From contig NZ_CP016776.1 in NCBI RefSeq assembly GCF_002288185.1, forward strand, positions 1,240,001-1,304,000: 64,000 bases of DNA, read 5' to 3'. Source of the stretch: Candidatus Planktophila vernalis. GTDB lineage: Bacteria > Actinomycetota > Actinomycetes > Nanopelagicales > Nanopelagicaceae. The notes under the pieces are model-generated. The model saw nothing but the letters and a program-made list of their open reading frames with translations, searched no databases and was not told the DNA's origin. This document shows, piece by piece, positions 30,500-53,426 of the stretch (the stretch's first letter is position 1; each line of letters opens with the position of its first letter). A program made the translations under genes and the position numbers.

Positions 30500-30572
30500 G
30501 TCCCCATCGTCTAGGGGCCTAGGACATCGCCCTTTCACGGCGGTAACACGGGTTCGAATCCCGTTGGGGGCA
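30500..30572 (+). tRNA. tRNA-Glu (anticodon TTC)
   Basis: A 73-nt cloverleaf: acceptor GTCCCCA/TGGGGGC, anticodon loop CTTTCAC, T-arm ACGGG TTCGAAT CCCGT, discriminator A. CCA is not encoded. First of three clustered tRNAs. Confidence 0.95.
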
Positions 30573-30638
30573 CGCACGAAATGTAGTAACGGCTTTAAGG
30601 TGACATAAGAGCCACTTATGTTTATGAGTTTCACTTAA

Positions 30639-30712
30639 GGCCCGGTAGCGCAGTTGGTTAGCGCGCCGCCCTGTCACGGCGGAGGTCGCGGGTTCAAGTC
30701 CCGTCCGGGTCG
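30639..30712 (+). tRNA. tRNA-Asp (anticodon GTC)
   Basis: A 74-nt cloverleaf: acceptor GGCCCGG/CCGGGTC, anticodon stem CCGCC/GGCGG with loop CTGTCAC, T-loop TTCAAGT, discriminator G. Confidence 0.95.
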
Positions 30713-30764
30713 CAAAGGTTTTGGTGTCGTATGCCTTTAGGTGAATGACATTAGAACCTTGTTT

Positions 30765-30838
30765 GGCTTGGTAGCTCAGTTGGTACGAGCGAACGACTGA
30801 AAATCGTTAGGTCGCCGGTTCGATCCCGGCCCAAGCCA
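30765..30838 (+). tRNA. tRNA-Phe (anticodon GAA)
   Basis: A 74-nt cloverleaf: acceptor GGCTTGG/CCAAGCC, anticodon stem AACGA/TCGTT with loop CTGAAAA, T-arm GCCGG TTCGATC CCGGC, discriminator A. It forms the left border of the polysaccharide island. Confidence 0.95.
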
Positions 30839-30931
30839 CACTTATTCAATTCTTGGCACTCCCAATTGAGTAATTAAACTAAAGACCAATCAGTGAAAGC
30901 AACTAATGAGTAATCTTAAAGCAATCGTCTG

Positions 30932-30964: not shown

Positions 30965-32035
30965 ATGCTCAGTGAAGACTTGCGAGGTCTTGAAAAACTC
31001 AATGGGCCTGTTTTGATAACAGGACATACCGGTTTTAAAGGAACTTGGCTTACTTTCTTGTTAGAAAAATTGGGTGTTCCGAGCATTGGCTTCTCTTTGC
31101 CTCCTGAAAGAGATTCACTCTTCTCTCGAATTCATAATTCTAAGGAGCCAACAGGAGAGTATGGCGATATTCGAAATCCCCATGCTTTGCAAACTATTTT
31201 TAACAAACAAAGGCCTTCAGCGGTGATACATCTAGCTGCACAACCTTTGGTTTTAAGGTCATTCACAATGCCGATTGAGACATTTGAAACTAACTCAATG
31301 GGAACTGCCAATCTTTTGAAGGTAGCGAGTGAGTTCAGTTCTGTGAAAAGCATGATTATTGCTACAACGGATAAGGTTTATGACAACGACGAAAGTGGAA
31401 AGTTCTTTAAAGAAAGCGACCCCCTAAGAGGGAAAGATCCCTACAGCGCAAGCAAGGTTGCTGCCGAGGCAGCTGTAGATGCATGGAGGGAAATTTCAAA
31501 ACTAAATGGCGGACCAAAGATTACTTCCGTTCGCGCAGGAAACGTAATCGGTGGTGGAGACTGGGCTGAAAATCGATTGCTTCCTGATGCTATTCGATCT
31601 TTTTCAAAACTAGAAAGCTTGATTGTAAGGAACCCCAATAGCGTTAGACCTTGGCAACATGTTCTTGATCCATTAATTGGGTATCTGAAAGTGCTCTCTC
31701 GCTCACTTCATGAGGAAGAATTCGACGTAAGAGCTGTAAATTTCAGTCCTAAGGAGTCAGGTCTAAGTGTGCGCAAAGTTGTCGAGGTTGCCGAGCAGAG
31801 TTGGCCTCAGAGAACCTCTGTTGACTTTGGTCAAGAGGAATCCAATATGAAAAAAGAATCAGCGATTTTAAATTTAGATTCAAGTTTTGCTGAACGAGAA
31901 TTCGGTTGGATACCGAAATGGAGTCAAGAAGAAGCGGTTATATCCACTGTCTTGTGGTGGCATGATCACTTACTCAATGATATCGATGCTAAAACACTAT
32001 GCCAGAGAAATATAGAAGAATTGCTCGAAGAATGA
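30965..32035 (+). CDS. rfbG: CDP-glucose 4,6-dehydratase
   Basis: A 356-residue extended SDR. The family-specific start VLITGHTGFKGTWLTFLLEKLG (NAD Rossmann motif with the typical HTGFKG), IIATTDKVYDND, the catalytic Tyr-Lys in DPYSASKVAAEAA and RAGNVIGGGDWAENRLLPD are diagnostic of CDP-glucose 4,6-dehydratases. It makes CDP-4-keto-6-deoxyglucose, the substrate of RfbH. The partner genes rfbF and rfbH lie about 17 kb away in the same island. Its TGA overlaps the following epimerase ATG (ATGA). Confidence 0.9.
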   Translation: MLSEDLRGLEKLNGPVLITGHTGFKGTWLTFLLEKLGVPSIGFSLPPERDSLFSRIHNSKEPTGEYGDIRNPHALQTIFNKQRPSAVIHLAAQPLVLRSFTMPIETFETNSMGTANLLKVASEFSSVKSMIIATTDKVYDNDESGKFFKESDPLRGKDPYSASKVAAEAAVDAWREISKLNGGPKITSVRAGNVIGGGDWAENRLLPDAIRSFSKLESLIVRNPNSVRPWQHVLDPLIGYLKVLSRSLHEEEFDVRAVNFSPKESGLSVRKVVEVAEQSWPQRTSVDFGQEESNMKKESAILNLDSSFAEREFGWIPKWSQEEAVISTVLWWHDHLLNDIDAKTLCQRNIEELLEE

Positions 32036-46183: not shown

Positions 46184-47116
46184 GTGAGAGTCTATGTTGC
46201 TGGTTCAAGCGGCCTTGTTGGCTCCGCTATCTCTAGAGCTGTTGTTAACAAGGGATACGAGTTGATAGCTTCAAAAAGATCTGAAGTAGACCTCTTTGAC
46301 TTTTCACAGACGCTCACATTTATTTCAGATACAAAGCCTGATCTTGTCATTGATGCGGCGGCCCGTGTGGGTGGAATCCTGGCTAACCGAGAGCACCCTG
46401 TAGATTTTTTGTTAGAGAATTTACGTATCCAAGAAAACTTGATGCGTGCATCAAATCTAGCAAACATTAGTCGGTTCGTGTTTCTAGGCTCTAGCTGTAT
46501 TTATCCGCGCAATGCGCTTCAACCAATCAAAGAAGAATATTTAATGACTGGCCCACTTGAAGAGACCAATTCAGCATATTCGATAGCAAAAATTGCTGGA
46601 GTAGAATTGATTAAGTCATATAGACGCCAATTTGGTAGAAAATGGATTTCTTTGATGCCTACCAATATTTATGGCCCCAATGACAATTTTAATTTAGAAA
46701 CTTCTCACGTCCTGGCTGCATTAATCCATAAGTTTCTAAGTGCAGCTAATTCTGGCCAAGCATCCGTTACCTTATGGGGAACAGGGAGTGCGCGTCGTGA
46801 GTTTCTCCATGCCGACGACTTGGCCCGTGCGGTTTTAGTTGCGGTGGATAAATATGACTCTGAAAGCCACCTCAATGTAGGGACAGGGGAGGACATCTCA
46901 ATAAAGGAGGTCGCTCAATTAATCGCAAAGATTTCAGGTTATTATGGCGCAATCAAATGGGATCCGACAAAGCCGGATGGAACTCCGCAGAAACTCTTGG
47001 AGGTCACTAAAATTAAAAAACTAGGGTGGAATCCCGAAATTAGCCTTGAAGATGGAATTTCATCAACCATGACATGGTTTAAAAGTGCTATCGAAAGAGG
47101 TGAGGTAAAAAAGTGA
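46184..47116 (+). CDS. fcl: GDP-L-fucose synthase
   Basis: A 310-residue [23 protein letters not shown] (the GSxGLVGSA motif of Fcl), [40 protein letters not shown] and the catalytic [14 protein letters not shown]. It converts GDP-4-keto-6-deoxymannose to GDP-L-fucose using NADPH as epimerase-reductase. It starts at a leaderless GTG and overlaps gmd by 4 nt; the gene order (fcl before gmd) is reversed from the usual one. Confidence 0.9.
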
Positions 47117-48093
47117 GCCGAAAAGTAGCATTTATCACAGGAATTACAGGTCAAGATGGTTCATATCTAGCTGAATTTTTATTGAGTAAGGACTACGAAG
47201 TACATGGTCTCATACGTCGCTCTTCTACCTTCAATACTTCCCGTATCGACCATATATATCAAGATCCTCATACCGAAAATCCGAGATTATTCTTACATTT
47301 TGGGGACTTAATAGACGGAGTTGGCCTGACGACTTTAATACGCGAATTGCAACCAACTGAAGTTTACAATTTAGCTGCACAATCTCATGTTCAAGTGTCC
47401 TTTTCAATGCCGCAATATACTGGGCAGGTAGACGGTGTGGGCGTAGTCGGAATACTAGAAGCAATTAGATCCGCGGAAGTAAACACTAGATTTTATCAAG
47501 CTAGTACATCCGAACTATTTGGCTCTACTCCTCCACCTCAAAATGAAGAGAGCTCTTTTAGGCCTAGAAGTCCTTATGCTGCAGCTAAGTTGATGGCTTA
47601 TTGGGCAACCGTTAATTACCGTGAAGCATATGGTTTGCATGCAAGTAACGGAATTCTGTTTAATCATGAGTCTCCGCGACGTGGTGAAACATTTGTGACT
47701 AGGAAAATATCTCGCGCCGTTGCCGCAATTGCAAAAGGTTCAAAGGAGAAATTGTTTTTAGGAAATCTTGAATCTGTCAGAGATTGGGGGTATGCCAAGG
47801 AGTACGTAGAGTCAATGTGGTTAATGCTCCAACAAGATAGTCCATCCGACTATGTAGTTGCCACGGGTGTAGGGGCGAGCGTTCGTGATTTTGCTAAAGC
47901 AGCATTTTCGCATGCAGATCTTGACTGGGAGGAACATTTAGAGATTGATAAGAAATATCTTCGCCCGACTGAGGTAGATTCATTGATAGGAGATCCTTCA
48001 AAAGCCAAAAAATTGCTCAGGTGGGAGGCCAAAACTAAGTGGCAGGAATTGGCTAAACTGATGGTTGATTCCGATTTACAAAGTAAAAATTAG
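47113..48093 (+). CDS. gmd: GDP-mannose 4,6-dehydratase
   Basis: A 326-residue [23 protein letters not shown] (typical GITGQDG), [60 protein letters not shown], the Tyr-Lys in [20 protein letters not shown], and [20 protein letters not shown]. It makes GDP-4-keto-6-deoxymannose for Fcl. Together they supply GDP-L-fucose. No manA/manC gene is visible in the window, so GDP-mannose must come from elsewhere. Confidence 0.93.
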
Positions 48094-48189: not shown

Positions 48190-49497
48190 ATGCAGAATTT
48201 AGAACCTTTAATTGAGCAGCTTGCCTCAGATGCATTCCAAACTTTGCATGCGAAGTCACCGTTTATAGCTGGAATCTCTGCGATTCCTGTAACTGGAAAA
48301 GTCTACGGCCGTGAAGAATTAATCGCCGCAACTAAAGCAAGTCTGGAGTTCTGGCTAACCTCCGGTCCATACACCGAAAAATTCGAATCTCGTTTTGCAA
48401 AAACTGTTGGAATGCGAAACGCATTCATGGTTAATTCGGGTTCCTCGGCGAATCTTTTAGCTCTTAGTTCTCTTACTAGTCGCGAGCACGGCCGGCGGGC
48501 CCTAAATCAAGGGGATGAGGTAATAACGGTTGCCGCAGGCTTTCCTACAACCGTAACGCCAATACTCCAGAATGGTTTGGTACCCGTTTATGTTGATGTG
48601 GATCCAGCAACTTACGTGGCAATAGATGAGCAATTGGAGGCTGCAGTTTCTTCAAAGACCAAGGCAGTGATGATGGCACACACTTTGGGGAATCCATTTA
48701 ATTTAGATTTCGTACAAGATTTAGTGAAGAAACACTCACTTTGGTTAATAGAAGATAGTTGTGACGCACTTGGCGGCACTTATGATGGTCAGAATTTGGG
48801 TACTTTTGGAGATCTTTCTACATTTAGCTTTTATCCAGCGCATCATATAACTACAGGTGAGGGTGGAGCTGTTCTGGCAAAAAATGTTGCGCATAAACGG
48901 ATAGTTGAATCATTCCGTGATTGGGGTCGTGACTGTTGGTGTGCACCTGGGTGTGATAACACATGCTTCAAGAGGTACGAATGGAAACTTGGTGAGCTTC
49001 CAGAGGGTTACGACCATAAGTACACATATTCACATCTTGGTTACAATTTAAAGTCTGGAGACATTCAAGCCGCAATTGGTCTGGCTCAATTAGATAGATT
49101 GGACTCCTTTGTTGGGTTGAGGCGCCGAAATTGGAATTACCTTTTAGAGGGATTGAAGAGTTTAGAAGATTTCGTCACACTTCCCAAGCCAACTCCAAAA
49201 AGCGATCCTTCATGGTTTGGCTTTGCCCTCACCGTCAAGCCATCTTCGCCTAAAACTAGAAATGAGATTGTCCAAGAGTTAAATGAGAGGAAGATCGGCA
49301 CAAGGCTGTTGTTTGGTGGAAATCTCTTAAGGCAACCTGCGTTTATTGGTACACCAAGGAGAGTGATTGGAAGCCTTGAAAACACCGACCGTATTATGAA
49401 TGGTACTTTCTGGATAGGCGTTTGGCCTGGCCTCTCGACTGAAATGTTAGATTTTATGATTGAATCAATTTACGAGATTCTAGGGATTAAGCCATGA
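48190..49497 (+). CDS. rfbH: CDP-4-keto-6-deoxyglucose 3-dehydrase (E1)
   Basis: A 435-residue PMP- and [2Fe-2S]-dependent dehydrase that removes the C3 hydroxyl of CDP-4-keto-6-deoxyglucose. Two features identify it. The PLP lysine is replaced by histidine (H218-H219 in FYPAHHITTGEGGA). The cluster ligands are present with exact E1 spacing: C191, then C249-x-C251-x7-C259 (C-x57-C-x1-C-x7-C). It begins the tight block rfbH-rfbF-transketolase N-transketolase C-SDR, each overlapping the next by 1-4 nt. The E3-type reductase that normally reduces it was not found in the window. Confidence 0.94.
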   Translation: MQNLEPLIEQLASDAFQTLHAKSPFIAGISAIPVTGKVYGREELIAATKASLEFWLTSGPYTEKFESRFAKTVGMRNAFMVNSGSSANLLALSSLTSREHGRRALNQGDEVITVAAGFPTTVTPILQNGLVPVYVDVDPATYVAIDEQLEAAVSSKTKAVMMAHTLGNPFNLDFVQDLVKKHSLWLIEDSCDALGGTYDGQNLGTFGDLSTFSFYPAHHITTGEGGAVLAKNVAHKRIVESFRDWGRDCWCAPGCDNTCFKRYEWKLGELPEGYDHKYTYSHLGYNLKSGDIQAAIGLAQLDRLDSFVGLRRRNWNYLLEGLKSLEDFVTLPKPTPKSDPSWFGFALTVKPSSPKTRNEIVQELNERKIGTRLLFGGNLLRQPAFIGTPRRVIGSLENTDRIMNGTFWIGVWPGLSTEMLDFMIESIYEILGIKP

Positions 49498-50198
49498 AAG
49501 TTTTGATCCTTGCTGGTGGGTTAGGAACCCGCATTTCTGAAGAAACTGCAGATAAGCCTAAACCTATGGTGACACTGGGTGGTAAACCAATTCTTTGGCA
49601 CTTAATGAATATTTACGCTAAGCAAGGTCTGAATGAGTTTGTGGTGGCAACTGGATATCGAGGCAATGTAATTTCAGATTGGGTGTCGCGACTAGAGAGT
49701 GACTGGAAAATCTCAACTATCGACACTGGTCTTGAAACACAAACAGGTGGTCGTATCAAGTTGTGCATGGATCTATTTCCTGGGGAAAGGGTACTTGCTA
49801 CTTATGGCGACGGATTAGGTAATGTAAATCTTACAAAACTCATTCAATTTCATGAAAATCATGGTCGATCAGCAACTTTGACTGCTGTCCGACCTCCCGC
49901 AAGATTTGGTTACCTAAACACCAAGGATGGGCAGGTCATACACTTTGGTGAAAAGAATCAGAGTGATGCTGGGTGGATAAATGGTGGATTCTTTGTCTTG
50001 GAGGCCCATGTCGCAAGCTACATTCACAATCTGAATGAACCTTTTGAAACAGGCGCGCTTCCAAGGCTGACGGAGCATGAACAGTTGATGGCTTATGAAC
50101 ACTTTGGCTTCTGGCAGCCTATGGACACTCTCCGAGAAAAAAATGATCTAGAGAAACTTGCAACCAAAACAATCCCCCCTTGGCTTGAAATTCTGTGA
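49494..50198 (+). CDS. rfbF: Glucose-1-phosphate cytidylyltransferase
   Basis: A 234-residue nucleotidyltransferase: KVLILAGGLGTRISEETADK, KPMVTLGGKPILWHLMNIYA, EFVVATGYRGNVI, LATYGDGLGNVNLTKLIQFH (metal Asp), LTAVRPPARFGYLNTKDGQV and INGGFFVLEAHVASYI. All are typical of RfbF/AscA enzymes making CDP-glucose. It is slightly shorter than the usual 255-260 residues. GTGA/ATGA overlaps tie it to rfbH before and the transketolase subunit after. Confidence 0.93.
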   Translation: MKVLILAGGLGTRISEETADKPKPMVTLGGKPILWHLMNIYAKQGLNEFVVATGYRGNVISDWVSRLESDWKISTIDTGLETQTGGRIKLCMDLFPGERVLATYGDGLGNVNLTKLIQFHENHGRSATLTAVRPPARFGYLNTKDGQVIHFGEKNQSDAGWINGGFFVLEAHVASYIHNLNEPFETGALPRLTEHEQLMAYEHFGFWQPMDTLREKNDLEKLATKTIPPWLEIL

Positions 50199-50980
50199 CT
50201 TTGATGTTTGAAATCGAAAAATCTATTGCAAAAAATTCTCGAAAAACTGCTTTGACCATGGTCCACCATGCTCGAAGCGCACACATCGGTTCGTCACTTT
50301 CATTAATTGATATTGCTGTCCAACTCTTCTTGAAATCAACAAGAAACGTCGATGACGTGGTATTAGTCTCAAAGGGCCATGCAGCGGCGGGCGTTTATGC
50401 AGTCCTAAATATTCTTGGCATGGTGCCTGATGGATGGATTTCAAACTACTGTACAAATGGTTCGAAATTGGGTGGACATGTAACCTCTACAAACTTACCA
50501 TTTTTGGAATTGTCTACTGGCTCGCTAGGCCATGGACTTCCATATGGGGTCGGTCGCGCCCTTGGAAAGTCTCGAGCCGGACAAAAAGGGCATGTTTACG
50601 TAGTTCTCTCGGATGGTGAGTGCGATGAAGGAAGTAATTGGGAAGCTGCTCTCATCGCTCCACAGTTGAAGTTAAACAATCTGACGGTAATAATTGATAG
50701 AAATCGCATACAGTCCCTAGGTGGCACTGAGGAAACAGTTGCCTTGGAACCCCTAGCAAGAAAATGGGAAGCGTTCAATTGGGAAGTCTTTGAGATCGAC
50801 GGTCATGACTTTAAAGATTTAGCGAAGATAACTCAACACATCAATCAGACGAAGCCAAGGGTTTATATCGCTGAGACGATAAAGGGAAAAGGTGTGAGCT
50901 TTATGGAGAATTCAGTGCTTTGGCATTATCGTCCGCCAAATTTTGAAGAACTGAATGCGGCAATCAAGGAATTAGAATGA
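50195..50980 (+). CDS. Transketolase-like N-terminal subunit (TPP-binding half)
   Basis: 261 residues: RKTALTMVHHARSAHIGSSL at the N-terminus (His for substrate and TPP), GHAAAGVYAVLNILG, LGGHVTSTNLPFLELSTGSL and the TPP motif YVVLSDGECDEGSNWEAALI...LNNLTVIIDRN. Split transketolases divide the usual 650-residue enzyme into this half and the next gene. Placement between CDP-deoxysugar genes suggests a dedicated ketol transfer onto a nucleotide sugar and not the pentose phosphate pathway. GTG 50195 (4-nt overlap) or ATG 50204 are possible starts. Confidence 0.88.
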   Translation: MTLMFEIEKSIAKNSRKTALTMVHHARSAHIGSSLSLIDIAVQLFLKSTRNVDDVVLVSKGHAAAGVYAVLNILGMVPDGWISNYCTNGSKLGGHVTSTNLPFLELSTGSLGHGLPYGVGRALGKSRAGQKGHVYVVLSDGECDEGSNWEAALIAPQLKLNNLTVIIDRNRIQSLGGTEETVALEPLARKWEAFNWEVFEIDGHDFKDLAKITQHINQTKPRVYIAETIKGKGVSFMENSVLWHYRPPNFEELNAAIKELE

Positions 50981-51891
50981 GAGATACATTCGTCAGGAAT
51001 TTAATGCGGCTTGCCCATGAAGATCCTGATATTTTTCTAATTGTCGGCGACCTTGGGTATGGCGTAATAGAAGAATTTGCGACAACCTATCCTGGCAGAT
51101 TCTTGAATGCAGGTATATCGGAACAAAACATGCTGGGCATGGCAGGTGGGTTGGCCGCCACTGGTTATAAAGTCTTTGTCTATTCAATCGCTAACTTTCC
51201 TACAATGCGATGTCTAGAGCAAATTCGAAATGATGTTGCATATCATGATTTGAATGTAACGATCGTTTCCGTCGGTGCAGGATTTGCCTACGGAACTCTG
51301 GGGTACTCACACTTCGCGGTGGAAGATCTTGCGGTGATGCGCGTTCTACCGAATCTGGAAATCTACTCACCGGGTGACACAATCGAGCTCGAGGTCTTAA
51401 TGCCCTATATTCTAAAGAAACCAGGACCTAAGTATTTAAGACTGGGGAAAAATGGAGAACCCCCTTTGAGTGATTCGCGATTAACTAACGTAGAAATCCC
51501 TCGTCTCTTGAATGAAGGCCAAAAAATTGTAGTACTTAGTACGGGCGGTATAGGAATTGAAGTTGTAAAAGCCATTAATGAATTAACAGCGACGGAAAAA
51601 ATCCAAGTCTCACATTTTTCAGTGCCGACTCTAAGTTTCAAAAGTATAGGCTCTATCAATCTGCAAAATTATGAAAAAATCATTACAGTAGAGGAACACA
51701 TACTTGATGGTGGATTTGGAAGCTTTGTTTTGGAATTTCTAGAAACAACTCAGCTCCAGGTTCCCGTGAAAAGAATTGGGATATTACGAACATTCGTTTA
51801 TGAAATTGGAGATCAACAGTATTTACGTGAATTAGCAAAAATAGACTCACAATCGATAAAAAGGGAAATTGAAATTGGTTTAGGTTTTTAA
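50977..51891 (+). CDS. Transketolase-like C-terminal subunit
   Basis: 304 residues: the pyrimidine-binding half with FLIVGDLGYGVIEEFATTYP, NAGISEQNMLGMAGGLAATG (Glu that activates TPP), FAYGTLGYSHFAVEDLAVMR and the C-terminal domain (KIITVEEHILDGGFGSFVLE). It pairs with the preceding subunit. Its TAA shares a base with the ATG of the following SDR. Sequence features cover both halves, so a working TPP enzyme is expected; donor and acceptor are unknown. Confidence 0.88.
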   Translation: MRDTFVRNLMRLAHEDPDIFLIVGDLGYGVIEEFATTYPGRFLNAGISEQNMLGMAGGLAATGYKVFVYSIANFPTMRCLEQIRNDVAYHDLNVTIVSVGAGFAYGTLGYSHFAVEDLAVMRVLPNLEIYSPGDTIELEVLMPYILKKPGPKYLRLGKNGEPPLSDSRLTNVEIPRLLNEGQKIVVLSTGGIGIEVVKAINELTATEKIQVSHFSVPTLSFKSIGSINLQNYEKIITVEEHILDGGFGSFVLEFLETTQLQVPVKRIGILRTFVYEIGDQQYLRELAKIDSQSIKREIEIGLGF

Positions 51892-52772
51892 TGACTTTCC
51901 AAGATACTCTACAGAATAACCGTATTTTGATCACTGGAGCTTCAGGCTGGATTGGACATGAGTTTTTATGCCAACTGCAAGGCAAGTTCGGAAGACTCGA
52001 ACATCTCGATTTGACCTGTGCCTCGAGTAAGCAAAAAACGATTTACATTCATGGTGAACCGATTGAGTGTAAATCTCTTACATCCATAACTGATTCGTTC
52101 TCCTACGACTTAATCGTTCACTTAGCATTCGTGTTACCAAATCCATCAAAAGCCATTAAGGTTGAGGAATACATCAGGATGAATCAGGAGATTTTAACCT
52201 TAACCAAAGATTTGTTTGATCAAAGTCAGAATGCATTGAAACTCATCATGTCGAGTGGTGCGGCATTAGACGGTAGCAATTTTTCTCACTCAGATATCTT
52301 GAAAAACTACAGTTTGCTTAAGCAGAATATGGAATCAGTCTTAAGGGATTCAAATAGCTTGGTGGTTCGATTATGGTCTGCAACGGGCCACCATATGCCT
52401 TTGGAATCTCATTACGCTTTAGCGGACTTTATTAGAAGGGCCAAGATAAATGAAGATATTTTCATTCAAAATGACGTTCTTCGTTCATATGTTTCTGCGC
52501 CTGAAATACTTGAAGCGGCCTTAGATCATTTATACAATGGTGGGCGGGGGATGATTAATTCAGGCGGTTCCGCTATCACTCTTTCAAAGCTAGCAGACAT
52601 TACGGTTAAAGCCATGAATTCAAATAGTCGTGTTATTGTCAAAAAACTAAGGCCTGACAGCAAATTAGATTACATTTCGCCTGAATCCAAACTATATTTA
52701 AACAATTTTAAAAAGCTAAGCTCAATTGAAATTCAAATCTCAGAAATGATTCAGGGGATTTACAAGTCTTGA
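51891..52772 (+). CDS. NAD(P)-dependent epimerase/dehydratase or ketoreductase (SDR)
   Basis: 293 residues of the extended SDR group: ILITGASGWIGHEFLCQLQG (cofactor motif), LIVHLAFVLPNPSKAIKVEE, LIMSSGAALDGSN, a Y-x3-K pair in KNYSLLKQNMES, and SLVVRLWSATG. It is the last member of the rfbH operon. By position it could reduce the C4 ketone or the ketol branch left by the transketolase, in analogy to reductases that finish branched or dideoxy sugars. It is more divergent than the other SDRs here; the exact reaction is unknown. Confidence 0.8.
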   Translation: MTFQDTLQNNRILITGASGWIGHEFLCQLQGKFGRLEHLDLTCASSKQKTIYIHGEPIECKSLTSITDSFSYDLIVHLAFVLPNPSKAIKVEEYIRMNQEILTLTKDLFDQSQNALKLIMSSGAALDGSNFSHSDILKNYSLLKQNMESVLRDSNSLVVRLWSATGHHMPLESHYALADFIRRAKINEDIFIQNDVLRSYVSAPEILEAALDHLYNGGRGMINSGGSAITLSKLADITVKAMNSNSRVIVKKLRPDSKLDYISPESKLYLNNFKKLSSIEIQISEMIQGIYKS

Positions 52773-52781
52773 CTCTATGAA

Positions 52782-53426
52782 TTAATCCAGTCTCACAACA
52801 CCACTAGGTGTTATCAAATCCACTGCAACAATTCCTGACTCACCATCATTTGTTGACGGGTCAATAAACTCAAGATTTGTGCCGTTTAATCCAGCAAGGA
52901 TCTCTGTTTTAAACCATGAGTCTGATAGTTGATCAGAGTCAGAAATTGTAATCTTTTCAATTGCAGCAACCGCTTTGCCATCTTGTGATGGGTGATCAGC
53001 AGTTAGCCATTGAATAAAGAATGGAAGTTCGCGAGACTCGGCAATTTCATTCACTCCGATTTGCTTCCACTTAAGATCGCTTCCATCTGGGCGTGTGCGG
53101 TGACCTTCGATTGCACTGCGCCCAAACTTCTCTTCAACCTTTGAAATATTGTCAGTTGCGAAAACCCAGGTTAGCCAACCGCCGCCTTCTTGTGCTTTCT
53201 TGCTAACAGCCTTACCCCAAGGAGTTTGCTCTGTTGCAGGATGATCAAGTGGGCAGACAACTTCGATGTATTGACCGTTTTGAAGAGGCAGTGTGAAGTT
53301 GCGTGTGCCAAAGCGTGGGTGGACACCACCATCTACGAAGGTGCTGCCGAGTCGTGAGCCAAGGCGTTGAACTGTGTCGGCTAGTTGATCATGGGAAGTT
53401 ACATATGAGACATGGTCTAAGCGCAT
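52782..53426 (-). CDS. Glyoxalase-like (VOC superfamily) protein
   Basis: A 214-residue VOC protein with a Glyoxalase_3-like pattern: MRLDHVSYVTSHDQLADTVQ, GGVHPRFGTRNFTLPLQNGQ, YIEVVCPLDHPATEQTPWGK, GGGWLTWVFATDNISKVEEK and a C-terminal beta-rich part. Codon and base use are less AT-rich than its neighbours and its content is metabolic and not surface-related, so it may be a core gene left inside the island. Substrate unknown. Confidence 0.8.
   Translation of the reverse strand: MRLDHVSYVTSHDQLADTVQRLGSRLGSTFVDGGVHPRFGTRNFTLPLQNGQYIEVVCPLDHPATEQTPWGKAVSKKAQEGGGWLTWVFATDNISKVEEKFGRSAIEGHRTRPDGSDLKWKQIGVNEIAESRELPFFIQWLTADHPSQDGKAVAAIEKITISDSDQLSDSWFKTEILAGLNGTNLEFIDPSTNDGESGIVAVDLITPSGVVRLD

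Follow-up and report, generated by a model that had tools for sequence, protein, structure and literature searches.

Five overlapping genes in the window, the 64,000-nucleotide stretch of DNA analyzed here, probably encode most of the route by which a branched CDP-deoxysugar is made for a surface polysaccharide; in it, a split transketolase would add a hydroxyacetyl group to a C4 ketone. The gene set comes from a freshwater-type actinobacterium and has related forms in many phyla; judged from sequence, it seems to be a case of a transketolase re-tooled to branch an activated surface sugar.

The gene array and the proposed pathway

The genes lie on the forward strand in the order RfbH, RfbF, transketolase N subunit (TK-N), transketolase C subunit (TK-C) and short-chain dehydrogenase/reductase (SDR). 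ORF coordinates give overlaps of 4, 4, 4 and 1 nt, in agreement with the five overlapping genes of the original prediction. The first gene (48190–49497, +) encodes a 435-residue RfbH/E1-type CDP-4-keto-6-deoxyglucose-3-dehydrase. It scored 673 bits against NCBIfam NF011936 (cut-off 423) and 551 bits against PDB 3bcx, a CDP-6-deoxy-L-threo-D-glycero-4-hexulose-3-dehydrase that we take to be the Yersinia E1. An E1 with histidine for lysine and a four-cysteine cluster had been predicted, and both features are present: His218 aligns with the lysine of PDB 3bb8, and Cys191, Cys249, Cys251 and Cys259 are spaced C191-X57-C249-X1-C251-X7-C259, presumably the [2Fe-2S] pattern of E1. A further cysteine, Cys255, in the middle of the CWCAPGCDNTC block, is variable among relatives and falls outside the C-X57-C-X1-C-X7-C pattern.

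The second gene (49494–50198, +) encodes a short RfbF-type glucose-1-phosphate cytidylyltransferase of 234 residues. The cytidylyltransferase type assigned earlier stands; specificity for CDP-glucose is likely, though uncertified by a score of 276.8 against the curated equivalog cut-off of 300.25. RfbG, a CDP-glucose 4,6-dehydratase, was located in the same island as expected (30965–32035, +). At 358 bits it is the sole gene above the curated cut-off of TIGR02622 (278) in the 1.364-Mb genome. The predicted absence of an E3 reductase for RfbH from the window extends to the whole genome by one test, a PF00175 (NAD_binding_1) search, whose single match was the electron-transfer subunit of dihydroorotate dehydrogenase, adjoining the dihydroorotate dehydrogenase gene. 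A regular-expression search likewise gave no ORF with paired Fd and FNR motifs in the window or the examined neighborhood loci (28 of class A). As no dedicated E3 was found, RfbH would need a general electron donor.

In the proposed pathway, RfbF would form CDP-glucose, RfbG would convert it to CDP-4-keto-6-deoxyglucose and RfbH would take off the 3-hydroxyl. The split transketolase, a ThDP enzyme and α2β2 by analogy with its Carboxydothermus counterpart, would draw hydroxyacetyl from either hydroxypyruvate or a ketose phosphate as ketol donor. Placed on the C4 ketone, this would give a tertiary alcohol, CDP-3,6-dideoxy-4-C-(hydroxyacetyl)-hexose, whose side-chain ketone the downstream SDR may then reduce, leaving a 1,2-dihydroxyethyl branch. 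While the gene families are assigned from computed search results, the acceptor is suggested by linkage, residue changes and a correlation at position 469, and the ketol donor by retention of H100. Hydroxyacetyl transfer to C4 of CDP-4-keto-3,6-dideoxyhexose is on these grounds the most likely reaction.

Branch reduction by the window SDR, suggested by gene position alone, is only plausible. This candidate reductase (51891–52772, +; 293 residues) is an extended SDR that keeps GxxGxxG, Tyr140 and Lys144. The divergence ascribed to it is evident, as only PF01370 was matched, at 22 bits, and none of the NCBIfam models. Its nearest solved sequences, 8v4g and 8v4h, are weak matches, the latter recorded as a reductase that depends on NADP and serves CDP-glucitol synthesis. 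Among neighboring ORFs of related loci its best relative reached 34 bits; it is non-orthologous to the SDR beside TK-N in many other loci and is not conserved there. An AlphaFold model from a 6-row alignment (mean pLDDT 60) was too weak to separate reductase from epimerase, and its Foldseek matches were generic extended SDRs.

Residues and family of the split transketolase

The claimed transketolase subunits, TK-N (50195–50980, +; 261 residues) and TK-C (50977–51891, +; 304 residues), matched PF00456, PF02779 and PF02780 (transketolase N, pyrimidine and C domains) above gathering scores. Among solved structures the split transketolase of Carboxydothermus matched best, with both of its chains (6yak, 182 bits; 6yaj, 146 bits), and the assignment holds. 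Eighteen sites were surveyed, numbered as in E. coli TktA. TK-N keeps the equivalents of H26, H66, H100, H261, D155, E160 and N185, with R91 replaced by Cys and a WHYR motif where WHG is expected. TK-C keeps those of E411, H473 and R358; its changes are H461 to Gly100, D469 to Leu108 (codon 51298–51300, +), S385 to Gly, R520 to Lys and F434 to Ile. The catalytic and cofactor residues for ThDP and ketol transfer (H26, H66, H100, H261, D155, N185, E411, H473) are thus all present. The set contacting acceptor phosphate and hydroxyls (H461, S385, R520, R358, D469) is reduced to R358, and the D469–R91 pair is lost. Loss of phosphate-binding residues, proposed as a test, is borne out to the extent that H461 is gone and the catalytic and C1-OH residues are kept. 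Changes at these sites have precedent in E. coli transketolase, which was evolved away from phosphorylated acceptors through S385, D469 and R520 (accessible text of PMC5073344) and whose H461S and R520V variants were more active on non-phosphorylated aldehydes (accessible text of PMC3657141).

The pattern is general among relatives. H26, H66, H100, H261, E411, H473 and R358 do not vary in any of the 48 rows of classes A (27) and B (21), while H461 and R91 are lost in 48/48 and D469 in 47/48. All three are kept in the 16 comparison rows (15 split transketolases and E. coli TktA). Glycine at 461 also occurs in 27/27 class C rows, which are relatives in loci lacking CDP genes. The genome's own unsplit transketolase (681 residues) equals TktA at 18/18 surveyed sites and so provides for the pentose-phosphate pathway.

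A quick tree, with TktA as a long branch, placed the 16 comparison rows on one side of a branch with SH-aLRT 100 and the window enzyme among the other 100 rows, setting its type apart from control split transketolases; trees against pentose-phosphate enzymes had been proposed. Left out were duplicates (L004–L023, L028), the loci L141–L143, L008, L148 and L138–L140 (TktA itself was kept) and, for want of a TK-N frame, L066, L096 and L129. The refuting case named in the original prediction, a housekeeping transketolase unlinked to rfbH, was rejected on residue losses, tree position and recurring CDP-gene linkage.

Genomic linkage and position 469

Among the matches listed (the best 80 of 580 reported), 43 of 80 named loci of the closest TK-C relatives, from 13 phyla, carry rfbF, rfbG or rfbH within at most 10 kb on each side, which is not a random-sample frequency because the scan started from a nine-row seed alignment picked once neighbors were known, with CDP linkage in 4 of the 8 rows other than the window. 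Among these 80 listed loci, rfbF occurred in 37, rfbG in 28 and rfbH with the Cys motif in 24; the rfbF of L066 was assigned by hand from two pieces (134 and 108 bits). CDP-glucose genes were seen in 0/15 control split-transketolase loci (Fisher p 8e-5 against 43/80). At least one CDP gene lies on the transketolase's strand in 44/49 class A/B loci. Phylum and relatives samples gave CDP genes in 4/18 loci. Among the listed matches, 37/80 loci were without CDP genes, 14 of these 37 with less than 15 kb of sequence covered. A DegT aminotransferase occurs instead in 23/37, so that the association with CDP sugars does not extend to the entire transketolase family.

The recurring arrangement elsewhere is rfbF-rfbG-(rfbH)-(SDR)-tktN-tktC. 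A Methylovirgula sp. HY1 plasmid carries contiguous rfbF-rfbG-SDR-rfbH-tktN-tktC, and a Paenibacillus plasmid has an SDR fused to TK-N within an rfbF-rfbG operon. In the same-genus IMCC25003, RfbH (75% identical) and RfbF (65%) lie within ~2.6 kb of TK-N/TK-C on the opposite strand. Of the five-gene order sought in other genomes, then, the linkage to rfbF, rfbG and rfbH recurs, but the exact order of the window was absent from the other loci examined. In three RfbH-less loci that were checked (L134, L114, L144), a C-methyltransferase gene (Methyltransf_13/14) separates rfbG from the transketolase genes. A wider search for relatives (own order and class, plus the classes of G396, G331 and G061) yielded 17 larger loci, with rfbF and/or rfbG in 8 (IMCC25003 also rfbH) and neither in 9, including L269 (contig of 4.5 kb). 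Viral contigs gave 12 relatives; the loci of two contained an RfbH-like match, and residue 469 of these two was not recovered by motif search.

Position 469 ranked first of 569 columns for separating loci with and without RfbH. Gln was found in 0/27 loci with RfbH versus 11/20 without (p 9.6e-6), leaving nine RfbH-less loci without Gln; L128, whose rfbH is cut by a contig end, was excluded. On the tree, 8 pairs gave 4.8 same, 0 opposite and 3.2 undecided (median p 0.06), and a polar/nonpolar coding was weaker than Gln/other (median p 0.22). That position 469 tracks RfbH is marginal, the pattern having been found post hoc with p about 0.06 after tree correction. Such a pattern is expected if the acceptor is the C4 ketone and loci differ in whether its 3-OH is present. 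Eight same-genus loci of a second arrangement (L269–L275, L277) all have Gln and no rfbH; they form one clade overlapping L119, L121 and L124 and so provide no independent test.

We put at roughly even odds a broader proposal, that a widespread and unrecognized class of two-chain transketolases has nucleotide-sugar ketones for acceptors. Residue 469 would then reflect the state of C3, being Leu, Ala or His in loci whose RfbH takes away the 3-OH and often Gln in the others. Variants that have a C-methyltransferase, a fused SDR or an aminotransferase would produce many surface sugars with hydroxyacetyl or dihydroxyethyl branches, a large family new to chemistry.

Known systems and competing explanations

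Among the closest parallels is yersiniose synthesis by YerE/YerF (and erwiniose, ErwE), where an RfbF/G/H-type route to CDP-3,6-dideoxy-4-keto-glucose precedes carbon addition at C4 by a ThDP enzyme (PMC12247030). YerE, however, is a pyruvate-using member of the decarboxylase superfamily, whereas the window subunits match transketolase models and keep the ketol-donor histidine. AviB1/AviB2-type and other alpha-KADH2 enzymes are likewise two-chain ThDP enzymes that put a two-carbon branch on a keto sugar, but belong to another ThDP superfamily with pyruvate as donor (PMC12247030; accessible text of PMC4753412). In the miharamycin and amipurimycin clusters, a split transketolase was proposed to move hydroxyacetyl onto a keto sugar. 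That case was "still pending" in a 2025 review, such enzymes for antibiotic sugars being unproven in vitro; 13 further candidates were named, all streptomycete and none characterized in vitro (PMC12247030). Those clusters belong to Streptomyces secondary metabolism and the present genes to CDP-deoxysugar operons for surface polysaccharides in many phyla, a separation drawn from descriptions. The Carboxydothermus hydrogenoformans enzyme (6yak/6yaj) shares the two-chain architecture but retains, in THAG/GEDG, the equivalents of H461 and D469 that the window enzyme lacks. The accessible text of PMC7661550 views split transketolases as limited to archaea and certain thermophilic bacteria, a view that the CDP-linked enzymes widen. 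Among the open-access matches listed, titles and abstract openings revealed no paper linking CDP-glucose genes to a branching transketolase; PMC3877843 contains both terms.

If true, hydroxyacetyl transfer would give bacteria a second biosynthetic logic for making branched sugars, provide enzymes for chiral tertiary alcohols and predict new structures among the sugars of many surface polysaccharides. It bears on whether transketolases naturally accept ketones. In small, contiguous and annotated gene sets such as that of Methylovirgula sp. HY1, the acceptor is obtainable with well-known enzymes, and residue 469 may predict its type.

Three other explanations were weighed. The transketolase might transfer pyruvate-derived acetyl, giving a yersiniose-type sugar through a different enzyme family, much as alpha-keto-acid dehydrogenases do in avilamycin/paulomycin-type sugars. 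DXS is a pyruvate-using family with a sugar phosphate as acceptor; the genome's own DXS has Tyr at the H100 position and Arg at the 461 position. Known two-carbon branches on CDP-4-keto-3,6-dideoxyglucose do derive from pyruvate (YerE), which alpha-KADH2 enzymes also use (PMC12247030), but conservation of H100 in 48/48 class A/B rows, set against the Tyr of DXS, makes acetyl transfer improbable, as does the failure of the characterized Carboxydothermus enzyme to accept pyruvate (accessible text of PMC7661550). We similarly give little credence to the SDR being a plain C4 reductase that yields an unbranched CDP-3,6-dideoxyhexose of the abequose/paratose type, with the transketolase serving another island sugar. 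The SDR is indeed an extended one of nucleotide-sugar type, and among the window proteins scanned (sets of 10 and 20, a part of all) we recognized nothing else as a dedicated reductase for C4 of the RfbH product. Such a role is countered by the SDR matching no NCBIfam model, by recurrence of the transketolase genes with rfbF/G/H in 13 phyla and by the tracking of RfbH at position 469.

Slightly less probable again is that the split transketolase works on sugar phosphates in the ordinary way to provide a precursor (e.g., a heptose), its place in sugar islands being due to chance. Related transketolases do occur in loci without CDP genes, and DXS works on a phosphorylated acceptor without His at 461, so loss of H461 alone is compatible with one. 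Retention of R358 and the conservative change of R520 to another basic residue would also allow a phosphorylated substrate, perhaps the donor. Hydroxyacetyl transfer to the CDP-sugar is favored over this role by the combined loss of H461, D469 and R91, the intact housekeeping transketolase, the SDR–TK-N fusion and the linkage in 43/80 loci, among matches listed, against 0/15.

Gene array and CDP-sugar enzymes

As in the original prediction, five overlapping genes (rfbH-rfbF-tktN-tktC-SDR, 48190-52772, + strand) were found with successive overlaps of 4, 4, 4 and 1 nt, in a host genome of one 1.364 Mb contig of which the window spans 1240001-1304000. Genes of the fcl-gmd type precede rfbH on the same strand (46184-48093). 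RfbH exceeds its curated model cut-off (673 bits vs 423) and retains His218 and C191, C249, C251 and C259, in agreement with its assignment as an E1 with His and a four-Cys cluster. RfbG, placed in the same island at 30965, scores 358 bits against a cut-off of 278 and is the only gene in the whole genome to exceed that model's cut-off. The assignment of RfbF to CDP-glucose synthesis stood at the level of a family match, but the curated cut-off was missed (277 vs 300). RfbF (49494-50198) is ~20 residues shorter than the family model, skipping profile positions about 69-90, and is 65% identical to the copy in IMCC25003 (same genus) despite its sub-cut-off score.

A general electron donor would be needed for RfbH, as had been anticipated, because no E3 reductase partner was found either in the genome, where the sole PF00175 protein is a dihydroorotate dehydrogenase subunit, or by motif search near related transketolase (TK) loci. 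The SDR retains GxxGxxG, Tyr140 and Lys144. Its closest solved sequences are 8v4g/8v4h (E about 0.01); the record of 8v4h names an NADP-dependent reductase that serves CDP-glucitol synthesis. We only infer that it may act as the reductase of the last step, since other loci use different, better-conserved SDRs beside TK-N.

Two features flank these genes. A tRNA-Glu, tRNA-Asp and tRNA-Phe cluster (30500-30839) immediately upstream of rfbG is a possible left border of the sugar island. A Glyoxalase_3-domain gene (52782-53426, - strand), with 77-78% homologues near TK genes in IMCC25003 and at a further locus, L119, perhaps marks the conserved edge of a variable island of surface-sugar genes.

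Neighbourhoods of related transketolases

TK-C relatives (E <=1e-35) were present in 8/60 relative genomes and in 95/396 phylum genomes, control-type split TKs among them. A nine-protein TK-C seed alignment, mostly top TK-C matches picked after their neighbours were known (CDP-linked in 4 of the 8 rows other than the window's), yielded 580 relatives in a profile search of genome contigs. Neighbours of the best 80 of these 580 were scored by tblastn at fixed cut-offs. Class A (an rfbH that has the Cys motif) comprised 24 loci, class B (rfbF and/or rfbG but no such rfbH) 19, class C (only a DegT aminotransferase) 23 and class D (none of these genes) 14. In classes C and D together, the stretch examined was <15 kb at 14 of 37 loci. 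The predicted conserved linkage was thus seen in 43 of these best 80 loci, vs 0/15 control split-TK loci, the controls being lower-ranked matches from one phylum whose housekeeping role is itself presumed. CDP genes occurred in 4/18 loci from the phylum and relatives searches.

Classes A and B span 13 named phyla, including one archaeal MAG, with MAG binning errors possible. Among 49 class A/B loci, the median distance from the TK pair to the nearest CDP gene was 1.3 kb, and 28 had one within 1.5 kb. Annotated examples are the plasmids of Methylovirgula sp. HY1 (rfbF-rfbG-SDR-rfbH-tktN-tktC; RfbF, RfbG and RfbH all above NCBIfam cut-offs) and Paenibacillus cellulosilyticus (rfbF-rfbG-C-methyltransferase-[SDR fused to TK-N]-tktC). 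The latter's natural fusion (L144:7097-9004) joins an extended SDR (residues 19-247) to TK-N (residues 383-612).

For miharamycin and amipurimycin, split transketolases have already been suggested as the enzymes that branch a keto-sugar, in vitro proof pending, and 13 further streptomycete candidates are named (PMC12247030). YerE catalyzes an analogous step, but with pyruvate as donor and from a different enzyme family (PMC12247030). We found no paper on a CDP-sugar operon with such a transketolase in the mainly open-access literature, at the level of titles and abstract beginnings.

Active-site residues, donor and acceptor

The closest solved structures to the TK halves (50195-50980 and 50977-51891, + strand) are both chains of the Carboxydothermus split enzyme. 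The genome additionally encodes a DXS and an unsplit 681-aa transketolase matching E. coli TktA at all 18 surveyed sites. The split pair retains H26, H66, H100, H261, D155, E160, N185, R358, D381, E411 and H473 (TktA numbering), and carries S385->Gly, F434->Ile, H461->Gly, E468->Thr, D469->Leu, R520->Lys and R91->Cys; Y440->Gln is shared with most control split TKs. In TktA, the phosphate of the substrate is bound by H461 and S385, and mutating H461, D469, R520 and S385 shifts the E. coli enzyme toward non-phosphorylated or non-polar acceptors (PMC3657141, PMC5073344); R91 is the salt-bridge partner of D469 (PMC5073344).

The anticipated loss of phosphate-binding residues was thus observed at H461 and S385, with R358 kept and R520 replaced by Lys. 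Loss of H461 alone is no proof of a non-phosphate acceptor, because the DXS of this genome carries Arg there yet has a sugar phosphate as its acceptor; this very slightly weakens the branching reading and strengthens the rival view of the split TK as an ordinary sugar-phosphate enzyme, which we consider improbable. In a quick-method tree of both halves (116 rows), a branch (100) set TktA and the 15 control split TKs, 16 rows in all, apart from the other 100 rows, the window among them, in line with the predicted separation. Taking the whole pathway together, the split TK probably branches C4 of CDP-4-keto-3,6-dideoxyhexose. A ketol donor is favored over pyruvate from residue comparison, since H100, which contacts the donor C1-OH, is present in every class A and B row (48/48) vs Tyr in the genome's own DXS.

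Position 469 and locus variants

Among 47 class A/B rows, Gln at 469 occurred in 11/20 without RfbH and 0/27 with it. This pattern, spotted post hoc, made 469 the best separator of 569 columns scanned (p 9.6e-6; next column 2.9e-4). A tree-corrected test on 8 independent pairs gave 4.8 in favor, 0 against and 3.2 undecided (median p 0.06). RfbH removes the OH adjacent to the C4 ketone, and D469 contacts the acceptor alpha-OH; the pattern is therefore that expected if the C4 ketone were the acceptor. The nine class B loci without Gln have Leu (4), Met (3), His (1) or Ala (1). Three class B loci (L134, L114 and L144) have a C-methyltransferase (Methyltransf_13/14) between rfbG and the TK genes, all with Gln at 469.

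The window falls in a starred (99), mostly actinobacterial 14-row set (7 B, 4 A, 3 D). Its genus shows two arrangements. One, seen in the window and in IMCC25003, includes RfbH; in the other, rfbG-rfbF is divergent from tktN-tktC, rfbH is absent and position 469 is Gln. Classes A and B intermix on the tree (their labels change 19 and 17 times, of which starred branches require at least 10 each), although class B labels may also arise from rfbH beyond the stretch examined. This intermixing suggests many gains or losses of 3-deoxygenation while the type of transketolase stayed the same.

At two further loci (L064:7706-13352 and L107:3901-9051), related TK pairs accompany a Bac_transf sugar transferase, a DegT aminotransferase and methyltransferases, and CDP-glucose genes were not detected; by gene content, TKs of this type would also serve another pathway here. 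The Enterovibrio escacola plasmid pMJ1 locus, counted as class B and with His at 469, has a DegT-family protein between rfbG and the TK genes. It lacks the Cys motif, has a His aligned to RfbH His218, and is perhaps a ColD-like 3-dehydratase acting on a CDP sugar. Twelve IMG/VR viral contigs (L167-L178) encode TK-C relatives, either host sequence or genes carried by phage; one of them (L171) also encodes RfbH with the Cys motif.
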